From Fidelibacterota bacterium (GTDB taxonomy: Bacteria > Fidelibacterota > UBA8477 > JABMPR01), in assembly GCA_013202495.1 (NCBI GenBank), contig JABMQQ010000233.1, positions 1-53,492 of the forward strand: a stretch of DNA of 53,492 bases, read 5' to 3'. Both the position numbers and the translations under genes were made by a program. The notes under the pieces are model-generated. The model was not told where the DNA came from. It worked only from the letters and a program-made list of their open reading frames with translations, and searched no databases. This document shows, piece by piece, positions 9,386 through 26,707 of this stretch (its first letter is position 1; each line of letters opens with the position of its first letter).

Positions 9386-9811
9386 ATGAGCCTAATAGAT
9401 CTATTTGCCGCGGCAATCACAGTTGTTTTGTTTATTATTTTAGCCTACAAAATTTATAATAATACCAAACAGATGCGGGGTACCCTGAAGAAATCTAGGA
9501 GTGGCAAAGCCGACGACATCATGCACGAATTTATGGATCAACCAGTATTGTGGGCCAAGCTATCCAAAGGTCTTGAAGCCAGTGGCCCAGATGAAGAGCT
9601 TAGTATGACCCTCATGGTTAATGCGGCATTCCAGGGTTTTGAGGCTCAGTGCGAAGAAGCCGAGACTGGAACGCTAGATGAGAATGAGATTCTCGCGTTG
9701 GAGGAAGGTGTTCATAGAATATGCGCCATGCCTGGTGTGGCTAAATATATGGCTGACCTGAAGCCAGATTTCTCTCAGAGGCTGCTAAATATTATTGATC
9801 AAAAATCGTAG
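9386..9811 (+). CDS. Membrane-anchored hypothetical protein
   Basis: 141 residues: one N-terminal membrane helix (LIDLFAAAITVVLFIILAYKIY), then a basic stretch and a soluble, helix-rich, acidic cytoplasmic domain. The ATG is preceded by GAGAGGAAAGC, a good ribosome site. I do not recognise the soluble domain. It lies upstream of the AddAB gene, separated by 82 bp. Confidence 0.55.
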   Translation: MSLIDLFAAAITVVLFIILAYKIYNNTKQMRGTLKKSRSGKADDIMHEFMDQPVLWAKLSKGLEASGPDEELSMTLMVNAAFQGFEAQCEEAETGTLDENEILALEEGVHRICAMPGVAKYMADLKPDFSQRLLNIIDQKS

Positions 9812-9893: not shown

Positions 9894-12800
9894 ATGAGTA
9901 TTGATTTAAGCAAAGTATTTGATCTCAATAAAAACATATTTATTGAGGCTTGTGCCGGTGCTGGGAAGACCTGGCTGCTTTCAAAACGCTACTCCACGAT
10001 CATGAATGATTTTGCGAGGCAGCATGAAACTTCGCTTTCAAAGAAAGATGCTTCAAATATTCTGGTTATCACCTTTACCCGCAAAGCCGCAGCAGAAATG
10101 GCTGGACGCATTTATGAAGACTTGAATAAGCTGCTCAATGACGAAGCTCTGGACAATGTAGATCCTGATTTTGGTTCCTTTCTGCGATCTGCTTCCGAAA
10201 ATACCAAAATGCATTTGCGTTCCACATTTTCCAAAAATGCCATTTCAACCATCGATTCATTTTGTGCTCAAATCCTAAGAGAACAGGCGGAGCGGCTGGA
10301 TATTGATCCTGAATTCAGAATTCAAGATGAAGCTGACACACAACGCATGGAGTTGGAAACCTGGGAGAAATACTTGGGGGATTGCAGTCGTAATGGTGAC
10401 GAAGATTTAAAGATTCTACTGGATCATCTTTCTGTGCGGCACATAAGCGAGTATGTGAAAAAGTTTCAGTCCAATGCCCAATTGATGGTGGGATGGTTGG
10501 AACACCACAGTAGCACATCTCCTGAGGATCTCCAGTCTGAATTCAAATTGAGGCACCCTTTGCCAGATGCTCTGGCGGAGATTGAGCCAGCCCTCATTCA
10601 CTTGCTGGATGGTCTTCCGACAGCTGATGAGATGTTGGATAGCAATCATTCCCAGTATCAGTCACTCCGAGATCTCCTGGAACTTCTGAGCAATCCCATT
10701 GAAGATGATTATCGCTACAGTCAAGAGCTCATAGAGTATGTGCGTCGTATCGCCTTAACCAAAGACCGCAAAAATTATTTGAAGCGACCTTCCGTTCCAT
10801 CAAATGTCTGGCCAGAGGATTTTAAGGACGAGATCAGGGCTCGTTTAAGAGACTTTAAGGATAAGGCTGAACAGCTGTTCCCCTATGAAACCCTGATGCA
10901 TGAGATCCCCAGCGTGTGGGATATAGAAGCCTGTCTGGTAAATCACCATTTTGCAAAATTCTTTCAAGGCTATTGGGGTGCTCTGAATCAACGCCTGAAG
11001 CGTGAAGGCATATTGAGCTTTAACGAAGTCATGCTGAAAACCAGAGAAATTCTCAGGGATGAGCAGATAGCTGCACTTTATGGTCAACGATATCAGCACA
11101 TCTTGTTTGATGAGTTCCAGGACACCAATGATGTGCGTTGGGATATTGTAAGACTCATCGCAGAATCTGGCCAGGGTGTCCTTCGCAATCAGGGTCTCTT
11201 TATAGTGGGGGATACCAAGCAGTCCATCTATCGATTCAACCAGGCCGATGTCCAAGTCATGAATCGAGTGAGGAATATCATTGATAAGGGTGATGGGTGG
11301 GTTCTTACTGCCGACGAAACCTATCGTTCATCTCAAAAATATGTGAGCGGAGTTATCAACCCATTGATCAGTTCAGCCTTCCCTGGTGAAGAGGATCGTG
11401 ACAAGGTAGAATTATATGAGACTGTCTTTAGGCCAACTAATGCAGCTAAAAGCACATTAAAAGATGACGGTTATATAGATATATCCCGTTGTACTGTCAG
11501 TGTTGTGCTGGATGATGAAGCATCCAGAGGCTCGGCAGTCGATATATACAAGACAGCTGATCTGACTCTGGATTGGCTGGATTGGGTAAAACAAAATAAG
11601 CTGGAGCCTGAGAGCGGACCTTCGGTTGGCATTCTATTGAGATCGTTCACACCCATTCTGGATTACATTCGCATTTTCACCAGCAAGGGTATAGAGTTTG
11701 AAGTTTTATCGAGTAAAGGTTTGTTTGAACAACAAGAGAGCTATGACATCTACCATTTGATTAGCGTATTGGTCAATCTACTTGATGACCAGGCTCTAGT
11801 GGGAATTTTACGCAGTCCATTCTTTGTGATGAAGGATGAGGATATTCAACGCTTAAAAGATGTAGCCAAAGATCGCACCAGCTCCGGCTGGGTCTGGAAT
11901 GGATTAAAACAGTTGCATCCAGAAATATGTGATACTCTGAGAGACTGGCAACAGGCCAGTGCCCGGGAGCCCCTGGATCGGCTCATAGAGAAAATTATCT
12001 CTGAAGACGAAAGACGACTGTCCTGGATATCTGAAACAGGTGGGGTGCTACGTTTGGCAAATCTGGATCGAATTATTCTCATGGTGCATCAGCTTTCGCT
12101 CGATGGTCTGGGTATCAGAGAAATTCATGAATACTTCAAATTCCAGATTCAACATGGTGATGCCTCACAGGCCGAACTTCCAGGAGCGGCCAGGGTTCAA
12201 ATTTTAACGATACACAAGGCTAAGGGACTGGAATATCCTGTGGTCCTTTTACCTGGCCTGCAATCACCCATACCCTCAGATAGAAGCGGTGTGTTTATTG
12301 GTCGTCATGAGGGTGACTGGCAGGCCGGTATTACTTTGGACTCAAAAAGAGCCAGTCACAAAACATGGATGCATGAGCAGATTAAGGAGCAAACCAAGGC
12401 TGAAGAAGAGGCCGAAGATAAAAGACTGTTCTATGTTGCTGTGACCCGAGCCAAGTTCGGCGTTGGTTTTATTGCCAAAATCAAACCAGACATAAAAGCG
12501 CCTGCCACTTCCCGCTGGGGCAGATATCTGCAACCCGTCTTCGACCTGGAGCTAGATAAGGATTTGGCTCTTAACGATCCCCATGCATTGCAAAAGGAAT
12601 GGCAGGCCAGATCAACGGCATCTGTGACTTACGATCTGACCGCAGGGTCGGATATTCTGCTTTCCGAAGCTGGGCGATCCGTTTCTACGGCAGCTGATAT
12701 CACTCAAATAGATCCAGTCATGCAGTCCCTGGTTTATAGTGAAATTTCTCCTCACACCATCATGAAGTGGATGGATAAAAAGAAATATGCTGGAGCTGAT

Positions 12801-15800
12801 GAAGGTCAACTGGGTGATGATCTGGACCTGGAAACAGCACCTAAAACTTTTGGATTACTCCTGCACCGAGCGATGGAAATGGAATGGTTTATTCCAGAAA
12901 ACTATGTGGACCAGATTCGACTTTTTCTTGAAGACGGCAATGTGATTGAAGCTGAAACTCAGAATCAATTTATTGAGGATCTTACAGACTGTCTTGAGAT
13001 ATACCGTAAGAGTCAGTTGGCGCAAAAGATATCAAGTCTTGATCCAATCAATAAATTACCAGAGTTACCTGTCTTTGGATTCCTGAAGAACAACACCCAT
13101 ATTTTTAAGGTTTCAGGTATTATTGATCTGCTATATCAAAGTGGAGATGAGTGGATTGTTCTCGATTACAAAACAGATAAAGAAGTTCCCCATGTGGACC
13201 AGTTGAAGCAGCATGCCTATTGGTACCAGATTCAGACCTATCTGTGGATGCTTAAGTATTTGTATGGGATAGAGGCACGTGGAGAACTTTATTTTAATCG
13301 TTTTGATACACTGATTCCTATAGCCTTTGATGAGGATCGATACTTTGCCAGTCTGGCTACCTATGAACATGGACGAGGTTTAAAACCAGTATTGCCTGGT
13401 GCTCAAGACATAAACCCCAGCTTGACCAAAGTTTTAGAGCGTCAGGATGATCTGGCAGAAATGCTCATCATAGAGCCAACAAAAAATAGTGGCGAGTTGT
13501 TAGCTCAATCACTGGCGAAGGCTGGACTCAATCACCCCAGACTGCAAATTATGACACTGGGTGAAGTTCGCAAAATGACCGAGCCTGCTGGTCGCAGACT
13601 GACACCTTATCTGACACGTTTAGGTATTGCTCAACTCTCTGGGAAACGGTTGCAATGGGGTGTAGTCAATCGTCTGGCCGAAGCTTTCTATAAAGCGACT
13701 GGGGGTGAGGGTGTCGTGGATGGGAAACAGGAACTTTTTGCTGAATTTTTAGGGTGGTGTGAGAAGCAATCCATACAGACTCCTGGTCAAAATTCTGATT
13801 TAAAGCATCTTCCTAGTTCCAGGAAGATCATAGTGAACTCAATCCATTCCACATCTCCTTCGGATTATGATTTCTTAAAAGCGCTTGCTGATGATCATGA
13901 CCTCATATTTTTTGATCCTCTCAGAGATAGCCAGCCAGTATCAGGATTTGATATGTCCATTGAGGCTTGGATGTCTCAGGAGGAAATGCCCTCCAAGGAT
14001 AAGCGTCATAGCTACACACCCTGCTTTTCCATTTATGAAGAAGCGGTCCTGGTGGGAGATCAGATTAGACAACTGATCAAGGACAATGTGGCACCAGCCG
14101 ACATCCGGATTGCTGTCTCCTCCATGGAACGCTATGTCCCGGCCATTAAGAGGGTCTTTGACCAACAGGGTATTTCGGTGCGTCTGAGTAAACGTGAACC
14201 CGTTATGGAAAGACCAGTCACCCAACTGGCTTTCGCACTTATTCAGGGGCGACTCCGGCAGCAGGTTTCCTGGGATATGGCCATGTCTGTCTGGCTCCAC
14301 CCCCTGGTCATTCCCAGTGGGGCAGATGGCTATGCGAGATTAAAACTTGATATTGAAATGCGAAAGCTTGGGGTCACCCAGGTGAGTGAAACTCTTCCGG
14401 AGCTGGTCACACATCCCAAACTCCAAGAAACAGCGAAAGAACTGCTTCATTTTCTATCTGAGACCTGGCACACAGGACAGCCCCTGGGTTTAGTGGACGC
14501 TGCTGACTGGTTGGTCGAGATACTTAAGAATTTCCAGTTTGCCCATCGTTTGGATGCCGGTAGTGTAGCCTCCAAATCCTATACCTCATTGAAGAATGCC
14601 ATTCTCGGTTTAAGTAAGGATTGGAAGAGATATTTAAGTCGCAAGGGGAGTCTTGCTGATCTGAATCGAGAATTGAGAGAGCGTTTGCGGGGAGTGGAAG
14701 TGGCCTCATCCAGCCAGGGTTTTGGTATTGATGTCATCTCCCTGTTGGATACATTGAATCTGAAGTCTGGTCATCTATTTGTCATGGGTCTTACGGAGGG
14801 ACAATTCCCCCTGACCATGAATACGAATCCGTATTTAAAGGCTGCTTCTCTCAACCCCTGGTTTCTCAATCTATATTTATTCAAGCAGTGGCTCAGTTTC
14901 CCCAGTGGTCAACTTCACCTCTCTGCACCGTCAAGGAATGCTGATGGAGCAGTGCTCCAGGAAAGTACCTTCTGTCAATATTTAGAGAAATTGGAATATC
15001 CAACTCTCACTACCCTGACACAGGACCAACAATACATTCAACTCTCAGGAAAGCGCTTCGCGACACCAAATTCTCAACGTCGAATTCGACACAATCAGTT
15101 GCAGCAAACCACAGGTCAAGGGGCGTGGCAGGGAAAACTGTACGATCATGATATCAGTGAATTTGATCATATCTCGGCTTCAGCGTTTGACGAACTGATT
15201 AAATGTCCACAACGATATTGGTATAGTCGCAAACTTCGATTGGAAGCTGCTGAAACCAATATTGCAGAACGTGAGGAAATTGAAGTGGGCAATCTGGTCC
15301 ACAAGGTTCTGGAGCGCTTTGGACGAGATGGTGGCTTTTTATTGGCCAATGATAATTTCCCTGCAGCCCTTCAAAAATTAGAGGAGATCGCCACCGCACT
15401 GTTGCATGAAAAGGAAATCGATCTTGATGCTGATCTGCTCCATAATAAATGGGGTGAGTTATATTTCAGAAACTTCCAGGATGTAGAACAAAACCTGATT
15501 GCTGCCATGCTGAAAATGGAGCTTGATGTGTTACCGGTATTCCGTGATGTTGGACTCCATGAGCAAGCATTTGGGGATGCTGAGGATGAGCAATCCTGGC
15601 CTGCATATAAAATTGAAGGGAACTCCATAAAACTATCCCTCCTGGGAAAAATTGATCGTGTTCTGGTGTCTGGAAAGCATGTCTGGGCAACTGACTATAA
15701 AACCGGCAAAGTTGATATTAAAGAAAGCAAAGAGCTATGGACCAGCCAGATGCTGTTTTATTATCTGGTTCTCAAGTCACAATATCCTGGGAGTGATGTT

Positions 15801-16097
15801 GTTTTAACTTATGAGCAGATCAAGGGATACAGAGACAATGCGATTGGGCTAAAGGGGTATGTTGGCGATGTTGACTCTGATCATCCCGTGATGGATACGC
15901 TGCCATCTCGTTCAAAGGCAATCGTGGCTATTGGTGGTGAGGCAGACTGGACGGTTGATCGAATAAAAGCTGAGACGCTTCGCTATGCACAGGCCCTGGC
16001 GGACAACCATTTCCCATTAACAACGCGAGAAGAGAAGCATGCCTGTGCCTATTGTCCTTATGATAGAATTTGCAGGAAGACTGCATTACCTAGGTAA
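9894..16097 (+). CDS. Single-chain AddAB-type helicase-nuclease (AddA-AddB fusion)
   Basis: One uninterrupted 2067-residue frame. Residues 1 to ~1165 are AddA. This part is a UvrD/SF1A helicase with Walker A Lys25 (ACAGAGKT), motif Ia TFTRKAAAEMA, Walker B DEFQD at 406-410, GDTKQSIYRF, motif V TIHKAKG at 772-778 and motif VI FYVAVTRAK around 846-854, followed by a PD-(D/E)xK nuclease (LDYKTDKE, Asp1091/Lys1093). Residues ~1190 to 2067 are AddB-like. This part is an inactive helicase with no Walker A and a RecC/AddB-type MGLTEGQFP segment, then a second nuclease (TDYKTGK, Asp1934/Lys1936) framed by an iron-sulphur staple: Cys1771 and Cys2051-x2-Cys2054-x5-Cys2060. Together these would process double-strand ends for recombination. 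The halves are normally separate subunits of ~1000-1200 residues each. An in-frame ATG at codon 1190 could allow internal initiation. Confidence 0.9.
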   Translation: MSIDLSKVFDLNKNIFIEACAGAGKTWLLSKRYSTIMNDFARQHETSLSKKDASNILVITFTRKAAAEMAGRIYEDLNKLLNDEALDNVDPDFGSFLRSASENTKMHLRSTFSKNAISTIDSFCAQILREQAERLDIDPEFRIQDEADTQRMELETWEKYLGDCSRNGDEDLKILLDHLSVRHISEYVKKFQSNAQLMVGWLEHHSSTSPEDLQSEFKLRHPLPDALAEIEPALIHLLDGLPTADEMLDSNHSQYQSLRDLLELLSNPIEDDYRYSQELIEYVRRIALTKDRKNYLKRPSVPSNVWPEDFKDEIRARLRDFKDKAEQLFPYETLMHEIPSVWDIEACLVNHHFAKFFQGYWGALNQRLKREGILSFNEVMLKTREILRDEQIAALYGQRYQHILFDEFQDTNDVRWDIVRLIAESGQGVLRNQGLFIVGDTKQSIYRFNQADVQVMNRVRNIIDKGDGWVLTADETYRSSQKYVSGVINPLISSAFPGEEDRDKVELYETVFRPTNAAKSTLKDDGYIDISRCTVSVVLDDEASRGSAVDIYKTADLTLDWLDWVKQNKLEPESGPSVGILLRSFTPILDYIRIFTSKGIEFEVLSSKGLFEQQESYDIYHLISVLVNLLDDQALVGILRSPFFVMKDEDIQRLKDVAKDRTSSGWVWNGLKQLHPEICDTLRDWQQASAREPLDRLIEKIISEDERRLSWISETGGVLRLANLDRIILMVHQLSLDGLGIREIHEYFKFQIQHGDASQAELPGAARVQILTIHKAKGLEYPVVLLPGLQSPIPSDRSGVFIGRHEGDWQAGITLDSKRASHKTWMHEQIKEQTKAEEEAEDKRLFYVAVTRAKFGVGFIAKIKPDIKAPATSRWGRYLQPVFDLELDKDLALNDPHALQKEWQARSTASVTYDLTAGSDILLSEAGRSVSTAADITQIDPVMQSLVYSEISPHTIMKWMDKKKYAGADEGQLGDDLDLETAPKTFGLLLHRAMEMEWFIPENYVDQIRLFLEDGNVIEAETQNQFIEDLTDCLEIYRKSQLAQKISSLDPINKLPELPVFGFLKNNTHIFKVSGIIDLLYQSGDEWIVLDYKTDKEVPHVDQLKQHAYWYQIQTYLWMLKYLYGIEARGELYFNRFDTLIPIAFDEDRYFASLATYEHGRGLKPVLPGAQDINPSLTKVLERQDDLAEMLIIEPTKNSGELLAQSLAKAGLNHPRLQIMTLGEVRKMTEPAGRRLTPYLTRLGIAQLSGKRLQWGVVNRLAEAFYKATGGEGVVDGKQELFAEFLGWCEKQSIQTPGQNSDLKHLPSSRKIIVNSIHSTSPSDYDFLKALADDHDLIFFDPLRDSQPVSGFDMSIEAWMSQEEMPSKDKRHSYTPCFSIYEEAVLVGDQIRQLIKDNVAPADIRIAVSSMERYVPAIKRVFDQQGISVRLSKREPVMERPVTQLAFALIQGRLRQQVSWDMAMSVWLHPLVIPSGADGYARLKLDIEMRKLGVTQVSETLPELVTHPKLQETAKELLHFLSETWHTGQPLGLVDAADWLVEILKNFQFAHRLDAGSVASKSYTSLKNAILGLSKDWKRYLSRKGSLADLNRELRERLRGVEVASSSQGFGIDVISLLDTLNLKSGHLFVMGLTEGQFPLTMNTNPYLKAASLNPWFLNLYLFKQWLSFPSGQLHLSAPSRNADGAVLQESTFCQYLEKLEYPTLTTLTQDQQYIQLSGKRFATPNSQRRIRHNQLQQTTGQGAWQGKLYDHDISEFDHISASAFDELIKCPQRYWYSRKLRLEAAETNIAEREEIEVGNLVHKVLERFGRDGGFLLANDNFPAALQKLEEIATALLHEKEIDLDADLLHNKWGELYFRNFQDVEQNLIAAMLKMELDVLPVFRDVGLHEQAFGDAEDEQSWPAYKIEGNSIKLSLLGKIDRVLVSGKHVWATDYKTGKVDIKESKELWTSQMLFYYLVLKSQYPGSDVVLTYEQIKGYRDNAIGLKGYVGDVDSDHPVMDTLPSRSKAIVAIGGEADWTVDRIKAETLRYAQALADNHFPLTTREEKHACAYCPYDRICRKTALPR

Positions 16098-16206: not shown

Positions 16207-18015
16207 CTATCCCTCAAGTTTTGAGATAGCTTCCCCAAGGGACTCCCAATCCTCCAACAGAGATTCAAGTTCAAGATTTAGCTTTTCAATAGCAATTGAA
16301 AGCTCCCCAAGTTTAGCGGGATCAGTGGCATTTTCAGGATTATGAAGTTCTGCTTCCAGGGCTGACTTGTTTAATTCAGCCTTATCAATATCCCGTTCAG
16401 TTTTATTAAATGTTTTGCGTAAAGTTTTAAGTTGCTGGTGTCGCAGTTTGTTGTTGCTGGGGTTGCGAACTTCTATTGGTTCATCAATGTTGGTTAATGA
16501 CTTTTGATAGTTGGTTAATTGGTAGGTGTCAGCAAAGACCTTTACAGTCCCATCGCCAGCAAGGTAGATGATCTCATCGCAAACTCGGTCCATTAAATAG
16601 CGATCATGCGTGATCAAGAGGAGAGCGCCGTTAAACTCCAGTAGACTCTCTTCAAGCACTTCCAGTGTAGGAATGTCAAGATCGTTCGTAGGCTCATCCA
16701 GTATGAGAATCTCAGCCGTTTCCAACATAATCTTGGCCAGCAGTACACGGGCTCTTTCTCCACCTGACAATTGTGATATGGGGAGTTCCAACTGCTCTTT
16801 CTGGAATAAAAACTTCTTGGCCCAGGCGCTAACGTGGAGGGGACTTCCATGGAAAATCACTGTATCACCATCAGGAGCCAGAGCACGTTTGAGTGACAAT
16901 TTCTCATTAGGGAGATGACGCGACTGATCAAGGGTAACCAGATTAACCCCTTGTGTTATTTCAACCTCACCAGTATCGGTGTCCAACTGCCCGCGAAGGA
17001 CATCTATAAGACTACTCTTACCACTTCCGTTGACACCCATAATGCCGATTTTCATCCGAGGGGAAAGAAAAAGTTCGAGATCTTTAAACAGTATTTGACC
17101 CCCTCTAGTTTTGCTAATTCCCCTGGCATGGAGAAGTTTTTTTGAGCGACGGTTGCCGGCTTCAAATTTTAGCCCAGCCTCAGTCTGCAGGTTATTCCGT
17201 TGTTTTAATTCTGAAAGATCATCAATCATATCATAGGCCTTGTCGACACGGTATTGGGCTTTGGTCGTACGTGCTTTGGGTCCATGACGCAGCCAGTCGA
17301 TTTCCCGCCTTACTTTATTTGACAACGCTTCTTCTTCCACGCGCTGATCGTTTAGAATCTTTTCCTGATCCTGGAGAAATTGAGAATAGTTGCCTTTGAC
17401 TTTCAGGTATCCCTGCTTATAGCGTCGATCAAGATCCATGATGCGATTGCAGGTATTCTCCAGAATAAAGCGGTCGTGACTGATCAATATGAATGCAAAT
17501 TTCGCTTGTTGGAGAAACGATTCCAGCCAGAGAATACCTTGGAGATCAAGATGGTTTGTCGGTTCATCCAGGAGCACCAAATCATTATCCTGTGCAAGAA
17601 TGCAGGCCAGCGCGACACGTTTTTTCCAACCCCCTGAAAGGGTACTTGAGATCTTATCAAGATCTGAGAACTGCATTTGCTCCTGGATATCTTTGAGCTG
17701 TTTCTGTCTCTCCCAGTTCTCGAGGTGATCTGGAAAATGGTGAGAGATGATATCTCTTATGGACAGTTCCTCATCAAAGACATCAGTTTGGGGGAGATAC
17801 GAAATGCGGATACCGGAGCTGAAAGATATGTCACCGCTATCAATTTGTTCTAGGCTGGCCAGGATTTTCAGGAGGGTTGATTTGCCAGCACCATTGGGAC
17901 CGATGAGACCAATGCGTTCACCGGAGTGGATGTTGACGGACAGGTTCTTAAACAGGAGAGTATTACTGTAAGATTTATGGATACTTTGAGTGGAAATGAG
18001 TGTAGTTGGGGTCAT
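16207..18015 (-). CDS. uup: ABC-F family ATPase, Uup-like
   Basis: Cytosolic, non-transport ABC protein thought to act on the ribosome and, for Uup, to affect replication fork or transposon-excision phenotypes. Two ABC cassettes are present: Walker A Lys45 (GPNGAGKST), signature LSGGWKKR and Walker B ending LLDEPTNHLD (Glu150); then Walker A Lys332 (GVNGSGKSS), signature LSGGERAR and LDEPTNDLD. Between them lies an ABC-F interdomain linker with the WLRHGPKARTT motif at about 240-250. The C-terminal ~80 residues are a charged coiled coil, as in Uup. The LSGGW and NDLD details favour Uup over EttA or YheS. It starts 21 bp after the CHAD gene and probably shares a transcript with it. Confidence 0.9.
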   Translation of the reverse strand: MTPTTLISTQSIHKSYSNTLLFKNLSVNIHSGERIGLIGPNGAGKSTLLKILASLEQIDSGDISFSSGIRISYLPQTDVFDEELSIRDIISHHFPDHLENWERQKQLKDIQEQMQFSDLDKISSTLSGGWKKRVALACILAQDNDLVLLDEPTNHLDLQGILWLESFLQQAKFAFILISHDRFILENTCNRIMDLDRRYKQGYLKVKGNYSQFLQDQEKILNDQRVEEEALSNKVRREIDWLRHGPKARTTKAQYRVDKAYDMIDDLSELKQRNNLQTEAGLKFEAGNRRSKKLLHARGISKTRGGQILFKDLELFLSPRMKIGIMGVNGSGKSSLIDVLRGQLDTDTGEVEITQGVNLVTLDQSRHLPNEKLSLKRALAPDGDTVIFHGSPLHVSAWAKKFLFQKEQLELPISQLSGGERARVLLAKIMLETAEILILDEPTNDLDIPTLEVLEESLLEFNGALLLITHDRYLMDRVCDEIIYLAGDGTVKVFADTYQLTNYQKSLTNIDEPIEVRNPSNNKLRHQQLKTLRKTFNKTERDIDKAELNKSALEAELHNPENATDPAKLGELSIAIEKLNLELESLLEDWESLGEAISKLEG

Positions 18016-18831: not shown

Positions 18832-19162
18832 GATTCAATATAATAATATCGTCAGCCTATGCTATTTGTGCTATTGGGTTAATGAAAATCCCCAATCTTA
18901 CAATATTATGGAGAATCAGCATAATCGCATAATATTGTTATTGGAATTGGTGAAGACGATTAAAATATTATTGCTATTCTGGTAACATATTCTAGTGAGG
19001 GAGATCATACCAGCGCGAAACGTTATAATTATGACGCTTTTAGTGCTTGTATGATGTACCCTCACCCCATATTATGTTCAAAACGAAGAAAATGAAATGA
19101 ATTAGCACCTAAGGTGCTGATATTGTTTTATTTATTGCATGCAACAAAATAACGGAGGAAGT
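18832..19162. promoter_or_regulatory. Divergent AT-rich promoter region with long imperfect stem-loop
   Basis: 331 bp between the CHAD gene (minus) and the giant surface-protein gene (plus), with no gene. A long imperfect hairpin spans 18996-19064: TGAGGG pairs with CCCTCA, ATCATAC with GTATGAT, then AGCGC with GTGCT and AAA with TTT, closing on an AT-rich loop. A second short stem (AGCACC-TAA-GGTGCT) lies at 19104-19118, just ahead of the start codon. Promoter boxes cannot be assigned confidently. Confidence 0.5.
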
Positions 19163-22100
19163 ATGTGGCGTAGATTGTTACTAATTAGTCTGGTAACCAC
19201 ACTGGCTTTTAGCTTTGCTTTTGCAGAGGTTGGACAAGCCATTGGTGAAGACGATACCCGGATTGGCCGGATAAAAGCCAAGCTGGAAAACAATGAAACT
19301 TTAACCCCATCTGAAAAAGATATGGCATGGGAAAATGGATTATTCGAGGAGCAGGTTGCTCCACCAGCCTATTATAATCCAAGCAGTTTACGTACTGCAT
19401 ATCTTGATGAAGGTTTTGAAACCTGGCCACCAGCTGGCTGGACATTAGATCCTGCAACCGGTGACGGTGCATGGTTACAGGACATGGCAGATGACCATGG
19501 TCCTGGGACAGTCATAGAAGGTACATATACAGCATTTTTTAACGACTATGACTACTCAAGTGGCACAGCTGGAACCATGACATCATCAGCCATCGACTTA
19601 ACTTCCGCCACAGCTCCTAGACTTAGCTTCTGGTATTATGATGCTGGTGGTTCTGATGTTATTGATGTTCTGGTTTCAACCGATAATACCACATTTACTT
19701 CCGTATACACAACTGACGGTACAGTCAGTTCATGGACAGAAATATTAGTTGATTTAACATCATACGTAGGCAATGCCACGGTATACGTGCAATTCGCCGC
19801 ATCAAGTGTTTGGGGAACAAGCAATCCCCACATTGATGCATTTTCTGTAGATGAAGCACCAACAGATCCTATCATTGGACTGTCCGCAGCAGCATATGAC
19901 TTCGGTGGTGTTATCCTCGGGATGAGTGCCGATGAAGTTTTAACTATTTCTAATACTGGTGGAGCCGATCTCAATATCTCAAGTATTGTTGCATCTGATG
20001 ATGCATTTACTGTCGATGTTGCCTCTGGTGTTGTTGCAGCTGGTGGAACTCTTGATGTAACCATCACTTTTGCCCCTGTACTTTCAACAGATTATACTGC
20101 AGACCTGACCATCACATCTGATGATGCTGGTTCTCCAGCTGTTGTCACTCTATCTGGTTCAGGTGCTCCTACCTCTGGCGGTCCAGATGCAGGTGGATAT
20201 TCATGGGTAAATAGTGTCGATGCCTCAGGTCCAACATTTACCTGGATCGATACAGTTGGTGCCACAGATGCTATTATCGCAAATGGTGATGATTATCGTG
20301 GTACGATTGATCTTCCATTTACCTTCAGATATTATGGTAACCTATATACCCAAATTACAGCCACAACAAATGGTTGGGTTGGTATGGGGCCACATACAGA
20401 TTATAGTAGTTCCTACTGGACCAATACTACGCTTCCAAGCACTACATCGCCTGACAATATTATTGCTCCCCTATGGGATGATTTTAAAGCTGGTGATGCA
20501 CCTGGAAGTACAAGTGCAGCCCATGGAACCATCCAGTCTAAGACTTTGGGAACCGAGCCAAATCGTCAGTTTGTTGTCATCTTTGACGAAATCGTTCGCG
20601 GAACCTATGATACGGATTATTTCAGTTTTGAAGTTATTCTGGACGAAGCCACCAGTGATATCACGATTCAATATCTAGATGTAACTGGAAACACCTCTGC
20701 TGACAATGGTGTTGGCGGTACTATCGGTCTAGAAAACGCTGATGCGACTATCGGTTTACTTTATGAATACAATGGCGATCCTCAGCTCATTTATGATGCT
20801 ATGGCCATTCATTTTGTAGCTCCACCTCCTCCATCATTACCTAATATGGTGCTTGATGTTTCGGCTCTGAATTTTGGTTCAGTTCCTGTTGGTGGATCAG
20901 CTAGTGCTGATGTCATGATTACAAACAATGGTAGCGGTGACCTGGTTGTATCAGGTGCCACCGTTGCAGCACCTTTCTCAACTACCTACTCAGGTACAAT
21001 TGCCGAGAATACTTCTGCTGCAGCAACCATCTTCTTTGATCCATCAGCTACCGGCTCCTTTGCCGAGACGCTAACCTTTACTGTTACCGGTGATTACACT
21101 GCTGATGATGATGCGGTTGCTCTTACTGGTAGTGCATATCCTGCAGACTTTGTTCTTGAGGATTTTGAAGGCGCGGATTTTCCTCCTTACGGATGGACGA
21201 TTATCGATGTTGATGGTGGAAGCGCCATCAATCCTGATCTTTCATACATCGATCCTCATTCAGGTGAAGTTGCTGCTGAAGGTATGGGTTGTGCAGATGA
21301 TTATCTGATCACACCATCCCTTACTATCCCAGCTGGTTATGCTGATTTCTCCTTCTGGCATGGACAAGAATCCACTAGCTATGAGAACTCTTTTAAACTG
21401 ATGGTCTCTACAACTGGAACAGCTCCTGCAGACTTTGTAGAAGTTGTTGATTATCCAAACACGGTTCCACCTGAAGCTGATGCCTGGACCATGGAAACAG
21501 TTGATTTGAGTGCCTATGCTGGTCAAGAAATCTATGTAGCTCTTTATGTCTATTATAGTGAGTCAAGTTATTATGGGTTTGGTTTTGATGATATCCTCAT
21601 GCCGCCCCTCACACCAAATACAAATACCCCATTCTTCTCTGAATACATGGAAGGATCAAGTAATAACAAGGGTATTGAAATCTATAATCTAACTGGCTCC
21701 ACCATCGAGCTGGATGAGTATCAAATTGCTCAGTCAAATAATGGTGGCGGTTGGTCTCTTTATCACGCCTTCCCAGCTGGTGCAACTCTAGACTTTCAGG
21801 ATTTATGGCTGATTGTCACAGATGCTGCATTCCCAGAAATGCAAGCTATGGCTGATGAAATTCTACCTTATAGCACGGAAGATAAGGTTGTTCACTTTAA
21901 TGGTGACGATGCCCGTGCCTTGATCCACATTGTTGGAACTGATACCACCTTTTTGGATGTTATCGGCGTTCCCACAGAGGATCCAGGTTCAGGTTGGGAT
22001 GTTGCTGGCGTTGCAGTCGGAACGCAAGAACACAACCTTGTACGTAAAGCTGATGTAGAAACAGGAAATACTGATTGGGCAGCTTCTGCCGGTACCAATG

Positions 22101-25100
22101 TTGATGATTCAGAATGGATCGTTTATGATCAAGATTTCTGGTATGGCATGGGTTACCACAATGAAGATTACCCACTCCCAGGTGACAACTGTGAACTGGC
22201 ACTTGTTTATGGTGATGTCAATGATCCTGCCATGGTAGGCACAATTGATTCCTATGGTGCAGCCTGGTATACCTTCTACAATGATGGCACTTATGATAAC
22301 GTCTTTGCATCACTCTGTGGATCAACCTTCGATACGAAGATTGAAGTATGGGCTGGTTGCGATTCAGCAGCATATATTGCCTATAATGATGATTTCTGTG
22401 GTACTCAGTCAGAAGTTGATCTTGGTGAATTACCTGCTGGTGATTACTGGGTTAAGGTATTTGGGTACGGCTCAGGTTCAGGCGAGTATACGCTGAACGT
22501 CACCGGTACCAATGGTGTACCTGACTTTGTTGTGACCTCGATGGAATACTATGGTCAGGATACTCTGGATGTTGTGGTTACCAATATTGGTGATGGCGAC
22601 TCTCCTGGATATGCTGGAACTGATTATCATGGTCTGTATATTGATGGCGATTATCTCGGTTATGTTGCCGAAGATGGCGTTGCCCTTCTGGCAGGCGCGA
22701 GCTATACATATAGCCTCATTGGTATCAATTATGACTTCCTCGGTGTAGGAATGCACCAGGTTGTATTTGAAGCTGATACAGATGATGATGTTTTAGAAAT
22801 TGATGAAACAAATAATAATGATACCCTCATGATTGAGATTGGGTATCCACCACTGGCTCCAAGACATGTCATGGCCATGGGAGGCGAAGCTCATGTATCT
22901 CTTTACTGGGAAACATCAGTCATCCCTGTGCCAGATGTTGCTAGTCTGGGAAGAAGCATCAGGGGTGTTAGCGAAACCAGAAGTAAACCAGCGGTTGTGC
23001 TCTCTCAAGAGTTACTGGACAAACGTGACGCAGCTCGTGGATCTGCTTTCCGTGAAGCTGGAGACACCTGTGCTGAAGCAGTAGAACTCACAGTAGCTGA
23101 TGGCTCTGTAGTTTCCGCTCCTTATGCACCATACTGGTATTCATACACACCTGCTGTAGATGGTTATTTGACAGCTTCTTCTGATGGTTTGACCACTGAA
23201 GATACCAAAGTGTATGCTTATGATGATTGTGATTTACCATACATTGATTATGATGATGATGGCGGAGCTGGACTCCAGTCCATTCTCACCATTCCTGTAA
23301 CTGCTGGAACCACCTACTACTTTGAATGGGTGGACACATATAGTTCAGCTGCCTTCGATTGGTCACTGACTTATATCGACTATCTACCACTTGCAGATCT
23401 TGAGGTTACAGAGATGTACCTTGAGGGTGATGCTGTCTTTGCTGTGATCACCAACATTGGTGTTCTCGACGCTGCTGGTGTCTCTTGTCATTGGTGGGTT
23501 AATGGTGAGGATGTTGCGTATGAATATACGGATCTCCTTATTCCAACAGCTGCTGATACATTAGGTCTGTATGGATTTTCATGGGCCAATCTTGGCGCAG
23601 GAACTTTCAATGTTGCCATGGATGTTGATTTCTGGGGTAGCGTAGACGAGATGTCTGAAGAAAATAACCTGGATTCAATCACCGTTGTTCTTGAAGATCC
23701 AGATTATATGCCAACTTATAATGTCTATCGTGATGATGTCCTTCTTGTAGGTGGTCTCGATGCAATCAACAGAGACTTCGATGGTGAATATATCGATGAA
23801 GCTGTGGTAGCAGATGTTGAGTATACTTACTATGTCACACAGATATTAGAAGACTTAAGTGAAACCATCCCATCCGAGTCTGTTTCAGCAACTCCTTGGG
23901 CTCCTGTATTCTATCCATTCCCATTCACAGAAGACTTTGAAGCTGTGATGGACAATATGCTTCCATTTGGTTACCTCGTTGAAGAAATCGGCGAGCCAGA
24001 TGGTAGTCAATGGGAAGTTGGAGATAGCGCTTACTTCGAAGGTAACTCTTATAACTACTGGTCGCCACCAGGTGGAAGCCAGTTTGCTGGTATCGATGAC
24101 GATGGTTGGGGTTCTGGCGTGAACGGTAACGAAATTCTGTGGACACCATGGGTAGATTTCGCTACTGCTGTCAATCCCCAGATTCAATTCAACTATACAG
24201 TCCAGGGTGGTAACGGTGGTGCATTCCTCGTCTTTGACGGTGATGCAGCCGTAGTTTACCCACTGGAAGATTCACCAGCTGATTGGGCAGGTGTTCTGTT
24301 CAACCTCGGCGAATATGCTGGAGACGTCGTCCGTTTTGGTTTCCATTATGATGATAATGGTGGCTGGGCATACGGTATGGGTGTTGACAACATTACTGTT
24401 GAGGAAGCACCTCTACCTGGAACGATTACTGGTACAGTACTTGACGTTGATGGTAATGCCATCGATCATGCTAATGTGCATGCCATGGGTCTGTTTGCCG
24501 ATGAAGGCACCATGACCGACGCAGCAGGTGTTTATACAATCACAGTTCCTGCTGGCGATTATGACGTTGAAGTCATGCGTGTGAATTATCATCCAGCAAT
24601 GGCTGAAATGGTAACTGTCGCTGAGGGTGCTGCAACAACTCTAGACTTTGTTCTGGATATGTACTTACCAGCTCCACAGAACCTCATGGCCTATCCAAGT
24701 ATGGTAGACACAACCATCGGTCTCATGTGGGCACCTCCTGTTCCAATGGGTCAGGTTGCCTATGATGATGGAACCTATGAAGGTTTTGTTACACCAGTAA
24801 GTCCTTCTACAGCTGACAACTTCTTTGCAGCTCACTTCAAGGCTGCTATTAGTCCAGGATATGCGATCAATGAGGTCTCCGTCCTGTCTACAGCAACTGG
24901 AGCTGAGTCAGCATTTGAAAGTATCTCTGTATTAGGCTCCGATGAAATGGGTCTGCCAGACTTTAGCGATGTTCTTTGGACATCCGCTGGAGCGGTTGCA
25001 GTCTTGTATCCTGAAGCTGCCTGGGATTTTTATCCAGTTGGTGTCACACCAGCTGAACATGATTTCTGGGTTGTTATCGAATGGCCTGTTGGCAATGAGT

Positions 25101-26707
25101 TTGGTCCCTATATCGGTCACGATGATGACACTTTCATAGGAAACTCAATCTGGTCCAATGCTGCCGATACATCAGGTGCTCCTGCATGGATTATGGATCC
25201 AGGTACTTTCGCAATTCACGCTTACCTCGGTGAACCAAGTACTGGTCGTTCAGTCGTCCTCCATGGTTCTGAAACTGTTAATATTGAGAAACTTGGTGCT
25301 CCAATTGAACTCAGTGTTAAACAGGATCTCGTATCCGCAGGTAGCGTTGAAGGTCCTACTATAACAACAGTTGGTCGTGAACTTCTTAACTACAACGTGT
25401 TTAGATCCCTGGACCCAATGGTTTTTGGTGATGCCTATGCAAACGTTGCTGGTGAGATGTTCTTTGATGATGACTTCATTTTCGATACACAGTACTTCTA
25501 TACCGTAAGTGCTGTATACGATCTTGGTGAATCAGGTTATTCAAATGTGGATGCCTTTACCTATTGGTCACCACTGTATCTGCATCACTATGAAGACTTC
25601 ATGTATCCAGATGCAACACCTCTCGAGGATATCGGTTTTGTAACCGATGATGGTGCCGGCAATGTGGCTCCAAACTGGGGTATAGAGAATGAAATGATGC
25701 ATTTCGATTGGTCACCAACTGCTACTGATTTCTATCAGACTGTTACTTCACCAGAGGCTGACTTTGCCGGTGCAACAGCTGCTAGAATCTCATTCTATTT
25801 GATGTTGGATGATTATAATGATGGTGATAATGGTACATTGGATATCTCAGCTTCTATTTCAAATGATGGCTTCGTGACTGAGACCGTACTTATGGCTCAT
25901 AATGATTCTATCTATGGAGATATTGATGATTACATGATCTTCAATGTTTCTGACGTAGTAGCTGGAACAGATGGATGGCAACTGCGATTCACTGTTGAAG
26001 GTGCCACATCATTTACCATGGATAATCTGTGGATTGATGATATCATGGTTGAATCTGATGTTTACCCAGGTCCAGGAGAGTTCAGTCTTCTGTCACCAGC
26101 TAACGATGATGACGTTGTGATTACATCTGCGAATGTTGCCACAGGATCCTTGCTCTTTGCTTGGGAATCTGCTGGTGATGATATGATGTATGGTGTTGAA
26201 TTGACTGGTACACTTGGAAGTGTAATCATTCCTTTCGACACATCCGCAACTGAAGTTCTGATTCCTTATTCAGTTCTTAGTGCTGCCTTTGAATTTACTG
26301 GCACCACTGGTGTAACTGGAACCTGGGATATTGTTGCTTATAGTGATATGTATGATGCCTGGTCATTGAATGGTCCATTCAACCTCACTATTGGTACAAC
26401 AGTAGGTACAGACGATACATTTATTCCAGATGTATTCGCTCTTTATCAGAACTATCCGAACCCCTTCAACCCGGTTACTACCATAACCTATGATATTCCA
26501 GAAGCATCTGATGTGAGACTTGTTGTCTACAATCTTGTTGGACAGCCAGTAAGCGTACTTGTTAATGGTTTCCAAAACCCAAGTCGCTACACATTAGCAT
26601 GGAATGGTCTATCTGACGCAGGCTTGCCAGTATCTTCAGGTATCTATGTATACCGCTTAGAAACTGATAGCTATGTCAAAACCATGAAGATGATGTATCT
26701 GAAATAA
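19163..26707 (+). CDS. Giant multidomain secreted surface protein with T9SS C-terminal sorting domain
   Basis: About 2514 residues. I start it at ATG 19163, which has GGAGG just upstream and gives a clear signal peptide (WRRLLLISLVTTLAFSFAFA). Approximate domains: choice-of-anchor J jelly-roll (80-232), choice-of-anchor D Ig-like (237-334), nidogen-like region (340-552), anchor D (562-655), anchor J (665-812), lamin-tail-like (821-1000), PPC-like (1007-1113), CARDB (1117-1226), FN3 first half (1229-1253), PPC-like and CARDB (1300-1510), FN3 second half (1515-1577), anchor J (1588-1750), carboxypeptidase-regulatory-like (1753-1833), FN3 first half (1835-1862), an unassigned beta domain, FN3 second half (2074-2136), anchor J-like (2138-2300), linker, and a FlgD-like Ig sorting domain (2420-2514; YPNPFNP, ending KMMYLK). 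It is very acidic. It is probably an adhesin or surface-layer-like protein exported by T9SS. No catalytic domain was seen. Confidence 0.88.
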   Translation: MWRRLLLISLVTTLAFSFAFAEVGQAIGEDDTRIGRIKAKLENNETLTPSEKDMAWENGLFEEQVAPPAYYNPSSLRTAYLDEGFETWPPAGWTLDPATGDGAWLQDMADDHGPGTVIEGTYTAFFNDYDYSSGTAGTMTSSAIDLTSATAPRLSFWYYDAGGSDVIDVLVSTDNTTFTSVYTTDGTVSSWTEILVDLTSYVGNATVYVQFAASSVWGTSNPHIDAFSVDEAPTDPIIGLSAAAYDFGGVILGMSADEVLTISNTGGADLNISSIVASDDAFTVDVASGVVAAGGTLDVTITFAPVLSTDYTADLTITSDDAGSPAVVTLSGSGAPTSGGPDAGGYSWVNSVDASGPTFTWIDTVGATDAIIANGDDYRGTIDLPFTFRYYGNLYTQITATTNGWVGMGPHTDYSSSYWTNTTLPSTTSPDNIIAPLWDDFKAGDAPGSTSAAHGTIQSKTLGTEPNRQFVVIFDEIVRGTYDTDYFSFEVILDEATSDITIQYLDVTGNTSADNGVGGTIGLENADATIGLLYEYNGDPQLIYDAMAIHFVAPPPPSLPNMVLDVSALNFGSVPVGGSASADVMITNNGSGDLVVSGATVAAPFSTTYSGTIAENTSAAATIFFDPSATGSFAETLTFTVTGDYTADDDAVALTGSAYPADFVLEDFEGADFPPYGWTIIDVDGGSAINPDLSYIDPHSGEVAAEGMGCADDYLITPSLTIPAGYADFSFWHGQESTSYENSFKLMVSTTGTAPADFVEVVDYPNTVPPEADAWTMETVDLSAYAGQEIYVALYVYYSESSYYGFGFDDILMPPLTPNTNTPFFSEYMEGSSNNKGIEIYNLTGSTIELDEYQIAQSNNGGGWSLYHAFPAGATLDFQDLWLIVTDAAFPEMQAMADEILPYSTEDKVVHFNGDDARALIHIVGTDTTFLDVIGVPTEDPGSGWDVAGVAVGTQEHNLVRKADVETGNTDWAASAGTNVDDSEWIVYDQDFWYGMGYHNEDYPLPGDNCELALVYGDVNDPAMVGTIDSYGAAWYTFYNDGTYDNVFASLCGSTFDTKIEVWAGCDSAAYIAYNDDFCGTQSEVDLGELPAGDYWVKVFGYGSGSGEYTLNVTGTNGVPDFVVTSMEYYGQDTLDVVVTNIGDGDSPGYAGTDYHGLYIDGDYLGYVAEDGVALLAGASYTYSLIGINYDFLGVGMHQVVFEADTDDDVLEIDETNNNDTLMIEIGYPPLAPRHVMAMGGEAHVSLYWETSVIPVPDVASLGRSIRGVSETRSKPAVVLSQELLDKRDAARGSAFREAGDTCAEAVELTVADGSVVSAPYAPYWYSYTPAVDGYLTASSDGLTTEDTKVYAYDDCDLPYIDYDDDGGAGLQSILTIPVTAGTTYYFEWVDTYSSAAFDWSLTYIDYLPLADLEVTEMYLEGDAVFAVITNIGVLDAAGVSCHWWVNGEDVAYEYTDLLIPTAADTLGLYGFSWANLGAGTFNVAMDVDFWGSVDEMSEENNLDSITVVLEDPDYMPTYNVYRDDVLLVGGLDAINRDFDGEYIDEAVVADVEYTYYVTQILEDLSETIPSESVSATPWAPVFYPFPFTEDFEAVMDNMLPFGYLVEEIGEPDGSQWEVGDSAYFEGNSYNYWSPPGGSQFAGIDDDGWGSGVNGNEILWTPWVDFATAVNPQIQFNYTVQGGNGGAFLVFDGDAAVVYPLEDSPADWAGVLFNLGEYAGDVVRFGFHYDDNGGWAYGMGVDNITVEEAPLPGTITGTVLDVDGNAIDHANVHAMGLFADEGTMTDAAGVYTITVPAGDYDVEVMRVNYHPAMAEMVTVAEGAATTLDFVLDMYLPAPQNLMAYPSMVDTTIGLMWAPPVPMGQVAYDDGTYEGFVTPVSPSTADNFFAAHFKAAISPGYAINEVSVLSTATGAESAFESISVLGSDEMGLPDFSDVLWTSAGAVAVLYPEAAWDFYPVGVTPAEHDFWVVIEWPVGNEFGPYIGHDDDTFIGNSIWSNAADTSGAPAWIMDPGTFAIHAYLGEPSTGRSVVLHGSETVNIEKLGAPIELSVKQDLVSAGSVEGPTITTVGRELLNYNVFRSLDPMVFGDAYANVAGEMFFDDDFIFDTQYFYTVSAVYDLGESGYSNVDAFTYWSPLYLHHYEDFMYPDATPLEDIGFVTDDGAGNVAPNWGIENEMMHFDWSPTATDFYQTVTSPEADFAGATAARISFYLMLDDYNDGDNGTLDISASISNDGFVTETVLMAHNDSIYGDIDDYMIFNVSDVVAGTDGWQLRFTVEGATSFTMDNLWIDDIMVESDVYPGPGEFSLLSPANDDDVVITSANVATGSLLFAWESAGDDMMYGVELTGTLGSVIIPFDTSATEVLIPYSVLSAAFEFTGTTGVTGTWDIVAYSDMYDAWSLNGPFNLTIGTTVGTDDTFIPDVFALYQNYPNPFNPVTTITYDIPEASDVRLVVYNLVGQPVSVLVNGFQNPSRYTLAWNGLSDAGLPVSSGIYVYRLETDSYVKTMKMMYLK

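Follow-up and report, generated by a model that had tools for sequence, protein, structure and literature searches.

Here we report that a 53,492-nucleotide stretch of DNA (hereafter the window), which belongs to a Candidatus Neomarinimicrobiota metagenome-assembled genome (MAG; 3.9 Mb, 255 contigs, 86% complete), carries one gene in which the counterparts of AddA and AddB are joined. AddAB is known as a 1:1 heterodimer, and we are highly confident that the product of this gene is a single-chain enzyme of the AddAB type, a helicase-nuclease that prepares double-strand DNA ends for recombination by resecting them. The frame starts with ATG at position 9894, its stop codon ends at 16097 on the plus strand, and it encodes 2067 residues with zero internal stops. 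The original prediction, made from the window alone, had placed AddA and AddB in this one stop-free chain, and the frame, the relatives, the motifs, the trees and the predicted folds all agree with it. The features of the gene are as follows.

9894..16097 (+), fused addA-addB gene of 2067 codons with an ATG start; open frame, and 31 full-length single-frame proteins (the window's included)
9921..11273 (+), N part of the superfamily 1A (SF1A) helicase core (residues 10-460; Walker A K25/T26, motif II 406-410); Pfam PF00580, invariant in 31/31
12048..12461 (+), UvrD_C part of the helicase (residues 719-856); Pfam and residue alignment
12822..13298 (+), nuclease A, PD-(D/E)XK, intact (H991, D1078, D1091, K1093, Q1112); PDDEXK_1 at residues 977-1134, 31/31
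13293..13466 (+), junction, residues 1134-1191; spacer of 50-59 residues in 31/31, block means of the predicted local distance difference test (pLDDT) 80-91 in the model
13461..13463 (+), in-frame ATG codon 1190, proposed internal start; poorly kept in the alignment
13461..15167 (+), AddB-type helicase-like part without P-loop (residues 1190-1758); motif scan, predicted fold nearest AddB chains
14808..14966 (+), latch region (residues 1639-1691); shortened to 51-53 residues in the 31 fused proteins, versus 60-69 in 14 separate AddB
15168..16076 (+), nuclease B, PD-(D/E)XK, intact (H1803, D1921, D1934, K1936, Q1952); PDDEXK_1 at residues 1759-2061, 31/31
15204..15206 (+), Cys1771, first ligand of a probable iron-sulfur (Fe-S) staple; present in 27/31
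16044..16073 (+), Cys2051, Cys2054 and Cys2060 (CxxCx5C), remaining staple ligands; 27/31, in the same proteins as Cys1771

The fused chain has several conserved features. First, the helicase motifs and both nuclease motifs are intact, as had been proposed. In the alignment of 31 fused proteins, the window's included, the motor residues K25 and T26 (Walker A), D406 and E407 (motif II), Q443 (motif III), G778 (motif V) and R852 (motif VI) are invariant, and R640 of motif IV is kept in 30, with lysine in one. All 31 proteins retain H991, D1078, D1091, K1093, Q1112 and Y1116 of nuclease A as well as H1803, D1921, D1934, K1936, Q1952 and Y1956 of nuclease B. Second, no P-loop of the form [AG]xxxxGK[ST] was found past residue 1150 in any of the 31 fused proteins, which bears out the description of the AddB half as Walker-A-less. 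P-loop loss was considered as a trait specific to the fusion and was dropped, since no canonical P-loop occurs within the first 90 residues of 6/14 separate AddB proteins either (8/14 have one). Third, the four cysteines named as a staple, Cys1771 and Cys2051/2054/2060, are present as described. They occur all together in 27/31 proteins, and none of them is kept in the remaining four (genomes G024, G219, G220 and G216), which form one clade in both trees described below, with a support of 99.4/100 and 100/100 (Shimodaira-Hasegawa approximate likelihood ratio test, SH-aLRT/bootstrap). This all-or-none pattern is as predicted for a shared metal cluster, and the four-Cys motif is a probable Fe-S staple of nuclease B.

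The distribution of the gene was examined by scanning 245 genomes of the phylum (the window's own included) with residues 1-869 at E<=1e-20, and the 60 matching genomes were sorted by open-frame length, contig ends and coverage. A full-length fused frame is present in 30 of them, giving 31 proteins (two in G007) of 1930-2145 residues, which bear seven family labels and range from 93% down to 29% identity; one copy (G036) sits within a genome consisting of one contig of 2,788,509 bases. In seven more genomes a frame of the fused clade runs off a contig end, two have a split form, and 21 have a separate AddA, with frames of 1121-1211 residues in 16 genomes and 616-915 residues in the other five. 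No match was obtained at this threshold in 185/245 genomes, for which absence and a more distant enzyme are both possible. A whole-protein search of 60 genomes, the window's own included, matched 59, many only at a related UvrD helicase, and detected all or part of the gene in 18/19 genomes of the genus, counting the window's. Two fused-type copies per genome bin were seen in G007 (loci L006, L108) and G063 (L094, L081), which may reflect duplication or strain mixture. Outside the phylum, a plasmid search gave 525 matching records, none covering 80% of the query in one place. For fused forms in the chromosomes of other phyla, a single scan sensitive to close relatives only gave 13 loci, 12 from Neomarinimicrobiota and one from a "bacterium", and absence elsewhere is not established. 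Among the best matches in the plasmid collection from outside the phylum were addB-addA-like pairs of haloarchaeal plasmids (L109 and others), and on a Rossellomorea plasmid (L112) addAB looks broken, with AddA in two frames (664 and 570 residues) and nuclease fragments after AddB.

The identity of the two halves was assessed by profiles and by predicted structures, and the N half leads to AddA and the C half to AddB-type families, as the original prediction had it. The N-half profile, built from 29 sequences, has B. subtilis AddA as its best match in the PDB (E 7e-84). When a model of residues 3-1165 (mean pLDDT 84.4; predicted template modelling score, pTM, 0.66) was searched with Foldseek, the four best matches were AddA chains (E 3e-46 to 3e-39), with RecBCD as the second-ranked kind. 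The model of residues 884-2067, made from fused sequences alone (mean pLDDT 83.9, pTM 0.66), has five AddB chains as its top five matches (E 6e-25 to 4e-24), with RecC (from 2.5e-17) and AdnA (from 3e-16) ranking below. In NCBIfam, the N half receives AddA-type names and the C half receives TIGR03623, Cas4 and AddB-type names, all far under the cut-offs; among 27 C halves scanned at E<=0.001, 25 match TIGR03623, 23 match addB_alphas and 20 match addB_Gpos. The fused C-half profile, run on fetched stretches of 11 phylum genomes in which AddA is separate, found AddB in 10 of them (all but G043), and also matched AddB-like neighbours of AddA in Haloplanus, Deinococcus and Azospira and the annotated addB of Rossellomorea, with E-values at such AddA-neighbour loci that refer to a small frame set. 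A C-half profile that includes the separate AddB of the phylum places AddB first (4e-59), a result that is partly circular.

Several points weigh against this interpretation. The scores lie well below the NCBIfam equivalog cut-offs (addA_Gpos 248.7/707.65, addA_alphas 244.4/860.75, addB_Gpos 29.3/903.7 and addB_alphas 26.2/486.5 bits), and the template modelling (TM) scores of the Foldseek matches are moderate, at about 0.5. The C-half profile of 27 fused sequences only matched AdnA (3e-9) and RecC (1e-5), and not B. subtilis AddB at E<=1. The biochemical function is read from sequence and predicted folds, another resection enzyme could be missing from a MAG of 86% completeness, and several contig ends in sister MAGs fall close to the junction. 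The AdnA and RecC matches would favor a fusion of the AdnAB or RecBC type, which we consider improbable, as Foldseek puts AddB above both and all four cysteines also occur in 9/10 separate AddB proteins of the phylum. For the AdnAB type, the C half would be expected to show the P-loop that AdnA keeps for itself, and it has none. For the RecBC type, the nuclease-like domain of RecC is reported to be inactivated (PMC1185551), whereas the nuclease residues here are intact in 31/31 proteins.

Compared with known systems, the AddAB-type chain resembles the B. subtilis AddA/AddB complex (PDB 3u44, 4cei) in having one SF1A motor-nuclease, a dead-helicase partner with its own nuclease and a four-Cys motif, and AddA and AddB are the best fold matches of its halves. 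It differs in being one chain, A then B, instead of a two-subunit heterodimer, in falling under the NCBIfam AddA/AddB cut-offs, and in a B half that lacks a P-loop and the latch arginine and has a shorter latch region. Most C halves match TIGR03623 (probable DNA repair protein, AddB-like), which we take to be the beta/gammaproteobacterial AddB-like type, although the window's C half scores only 48/299.6 bits. AdnAB of mycobacteria pairs two UvrD-like halves that each bear a RecB-like nuclease and a P-loop motor. AdnA was the best sequence match of the fused-only C-half profile, but in the fused protein the P-loop is confined to the N half, the four-Cys motif is present, and the AdnA fold ranks under AddB and RecC. 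RecBCD also pairs a dead helicase-like partner (RecC) with a RecB-type motor-nuclease and is the second-ranked fold for both halves; it differs in the C-half nuclease, as noted above. No RecD-like part was found in the fused chain with Pfam and NCBIfam, the genome itself not having been searched for RecD. Last, Dna2 and Bad contain a single nuclease and lack a second helicase-like half, which is a difference from the fused protein. DNA2-like helicase-nucleases of this kind resemble it in combining an Fe-S nuclease and a motor in a single polypeptide, according to a report on them (PMC7430649).

The origin of the fusion was examined using two unrooted trees, one built from 49 rows and 1087 columns of the N half and the other from 46 rows and 824 columns of the C half, with separate AddA and AddB from the same phylum and from other phyla as comparison rows. 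Fused and split forms make up one side of a branch in both trees (100/100 for the N half, 99.2/100 for the C half), and the simplest reading would be a single fusion that took place in a common ancestor of some members of the phylum and was kept since. Where the phylum has separate genes, addB stands upstream of addA, with both on one strand, in each of the 10 pairs; the two are about 10 kb apart in G028. Haloplanus, Deinococcus, Azospira and Rossellomorea share this order. The AddB-like gene of Salinimonas is found downstream of addA, on the opposite strand. The order in the fusion is A then B in 31/31, the reverse of the separate pairs. Because of this reversal relative to the addB-addA operon, the loss of a stop codon cannot have made the fusion, and a rearrangement was needed. 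At five loci with separate genes (L089, L090, L091, L092 and L093), an opposite-strand frame of 277-590 residues stands between addB and addA.

In one genus (g22, of family f6), the enzyme is encoded by two genes at different loci (L084, L120, L082, L083, L121), with the cut inside nuclease A. The first gene (1038 residues in G068, 1044 in G050) stops past motif I of nuclease A, and the second (1013 residues in G068) encodes the remainder of nuclease A, with GIID, DYKTD and QIQTY, and after it the AddB half. The frames that flank each gene resemble one another from species to species. In G068 the two genes are contig-internal; in G050 and G069 a contig end truncates the second gene, and the first was not found in G069 by the phylum scan with residues 1-869. 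These split forms nest in the fused clade, with weak support for the exact position (N-half tree 3.6/53, C-half tree 96.5/75). A cut inside nuclease A is sensible only in a descendant of the fused gene. The arrangement is best read as fission of that gene at a new site, and the two chains would be expected to rebuild one PD-(D/E)XK active site.

At the junction, the frame is open in all 31 full-length proteins, so that the stop codon looked for there is absent, and the spacer from nuclease A to the AddB part is near-constant (50-59 residues). The model predicts that the halves are linked by a short ordered bridge instead of a long floppy linker. The proposal that the in-frame ATG at codon 1190 also gives a separate AddB did not hold up. 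A free AddB made from an internal start near the junction, with both forms in the cell, would be favored by short sequences that end 13 bases upstream of two codons in the window, namely AGGA before the ATG at codon 1190 and GAGG before a TTG at codon 1167, and by the fact that codon 1167 is a possible start in 10/13 congeneric proteins (TTG in nine, ATG in one). On the other hand, codon 1190 encodes Met in only 3/31 proteins and is ATG or GTG in only 4/13 congeneric proteins (12 genomes), and codon 1167, compared within the genus only, is otherwise an ordinary leucine codon. The 60-codon blocks at the junction show codon identities of 0.386 and 0.343, lower than the gene mean of 0.435 (617 columns), thus giving no sign of an overlapping signal. 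We rejected the start at codon 1190 because of the poorly kept Met and this low codon identity, and the coexistence of fusion and free AddB is very improbable.

The fused proteins also differ from separate AddB in the region that controls the response to Chi. In B. subtilis AddB, according to the study describing it (PMC4824097), an ionic latch formed by a loop-helix-loop in domain 2A gates this response, and its salt bridge, E129-R629, is described as absolutely conserved. Between fixed anchors, the latch region measures 51-53 residues in the 31 fused proteins and 52 in the split form, compared with 60-69 in the 14 separate AddB. The column of the latch arginine holds R in 0/31 fused proteins versus 11/14 separate AddB (one of these 11 being the row used to place the column), and the E129 column is acidic in 7/31 versus 10/14. 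The stretch 1A/1B is also shorter, with 92-108 residues in the fused proteins versus 121-147 in separate AddB. However, the separate AddB of Haloplanus and Azospira are without both latch residues, so the loss of the bridge alone is not specific to the fusion. The latch loss is in addition read from an alignment over a length difference, in which the lengths can be trusted more than the residue columns, and this too counts against our interpretation. Loss of the Chi-contact residues F68 and R132 through the fusion was considered and dropped, as these columns vary among separate AddB as well. From the alignment, the known Chi latch would seem not to operate in the fused enzyme. Because the latch region is shortened and the salt-bridge arginine is missing, the enzyme probably works either without Chi control or with another gate.

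In B. subtilis AddAB, the AddA nuclease cuts the 3'-ended strand tracked by the motor and the AddB nuclease cuts the opposite strand. By analogy, the single SF1A motor in the N half of the fused enzyme would pull the duplex in, nuclease A would cut the motor-tracked, 3'-ended strand, and nuclease B, probably stapled by Fe-S, would cut the opposite strand; the resected double-strand ends would then serve recombination. The covalent join would fix the subunit ratio at 1:1. No other AddAB-like enzyme was found in the window genome by PF00580 and PF12705 searches (at the completeness given above); PF00580 finds one further UvrD-type helicase (733-residue frame) and PF12705 two further proteins (305- and 281-residue frames). 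The role is likely housekeeping break resection. UvrD-Cas4-like fusions of another kind occur in defence loci, as reported in PMC5704561, which would be in line with a defence or mobile-element helicase-nuclease. We give this little credence, given that the neighbours, as identified with Pfam and NCBIfam, are ordinary (EamA, ABC-F and CHAD) and their order is partly kept in congeners, that the gene is whole or partial in nearly all genomes of the genus, and that the PF00580 and PF12705 searches returned no second AddAB-like enzyme.

Among the neighbours, an ABC-F family ATPase (16207-18015, minus strand) is convergent with the fused gene and lies downstream of it in 6/8 loci, the other two of which end within the fused gene. 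Just upstream, an open reading frame of 141 residues (9386-9811, plus strand) is 85-93% identical and in place in 5/8 loci, and it has no Pfam or NCBIfam match at E<=0.001. Further downstream, 19139-26707 (plus strand) encodes a probable surface or secreted protein of 2522 residues with HYDIN/ASH Ig-like domains, Lamin tail, Cleaved_Adhesin and CarboxypepD_reg, and with a weak Por_Secre_tail at its C end.

In sister MAGs, contig ends cut the gene near codons 1064 (G011), 1085-1099 (G016), 1104-1146 (G014) and 1193 (G053), that is, close to the junction, and also at codons 1268 (G047), 1297 (G008) and 1377-1422 (G010, G012). The concentration of such ends between codons ~1064 and 1193, around the junction and the last part of nuclease A, perhaps reflects strain variation. 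These cut ends and the incomplete 255-contig MAG are what could be said for a wrong joining of two neighbouring genes by assembly or binning, which has practically no chance of being correct, as 31 full-length frames span 93% to 29% identity with a spacer of near-constant length, one of them within a 2.79-Mb single contig, every cut frame is open up to the contig end with the two pieces overlapping in G010, G012, G014 and G016, and neighbours that run in the reverse order would not yield A then B when misjoined. Assembly error is excluded for the lineage.

In conclusion, a natural single-chain AddAB-type enzyme is encoded in the window and in a lineage of its phylum. The parts are known, and very probably so is the chemistry; the novelty lies in the joining into a single chain and the age of this join, in the reversal of the gene order, in the altered latch and in the cut within nuclease A. 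No earlier report of a fused AddAB was found in the open literature searched, the coverage of which was incomplete, so that a prior mention may exist. We tentatively propose, as a possibility that we hold at well under even odds, a covalent AddAB of a phylum-level lineage without the Chi latch, whose switching is Chi-free or gated by the bridge, together with one genus that has gone back to two polypeptides, in which two loci rebuild one PD-(D/E)XK site. A natural single-chain AddAB is a 1:1 enzyme by design and can be useful in structural and single-molecule work. Using the fusion, it can be asked if covalent joining replaces regulation by the AddB latch. In addition, one clade has lost all four cysteines together, which amounts to a natural experiment on the function of the Fe-S staple, and the genus in which the enzyme is cut inside nuclease A would provide a natural split nuclease.

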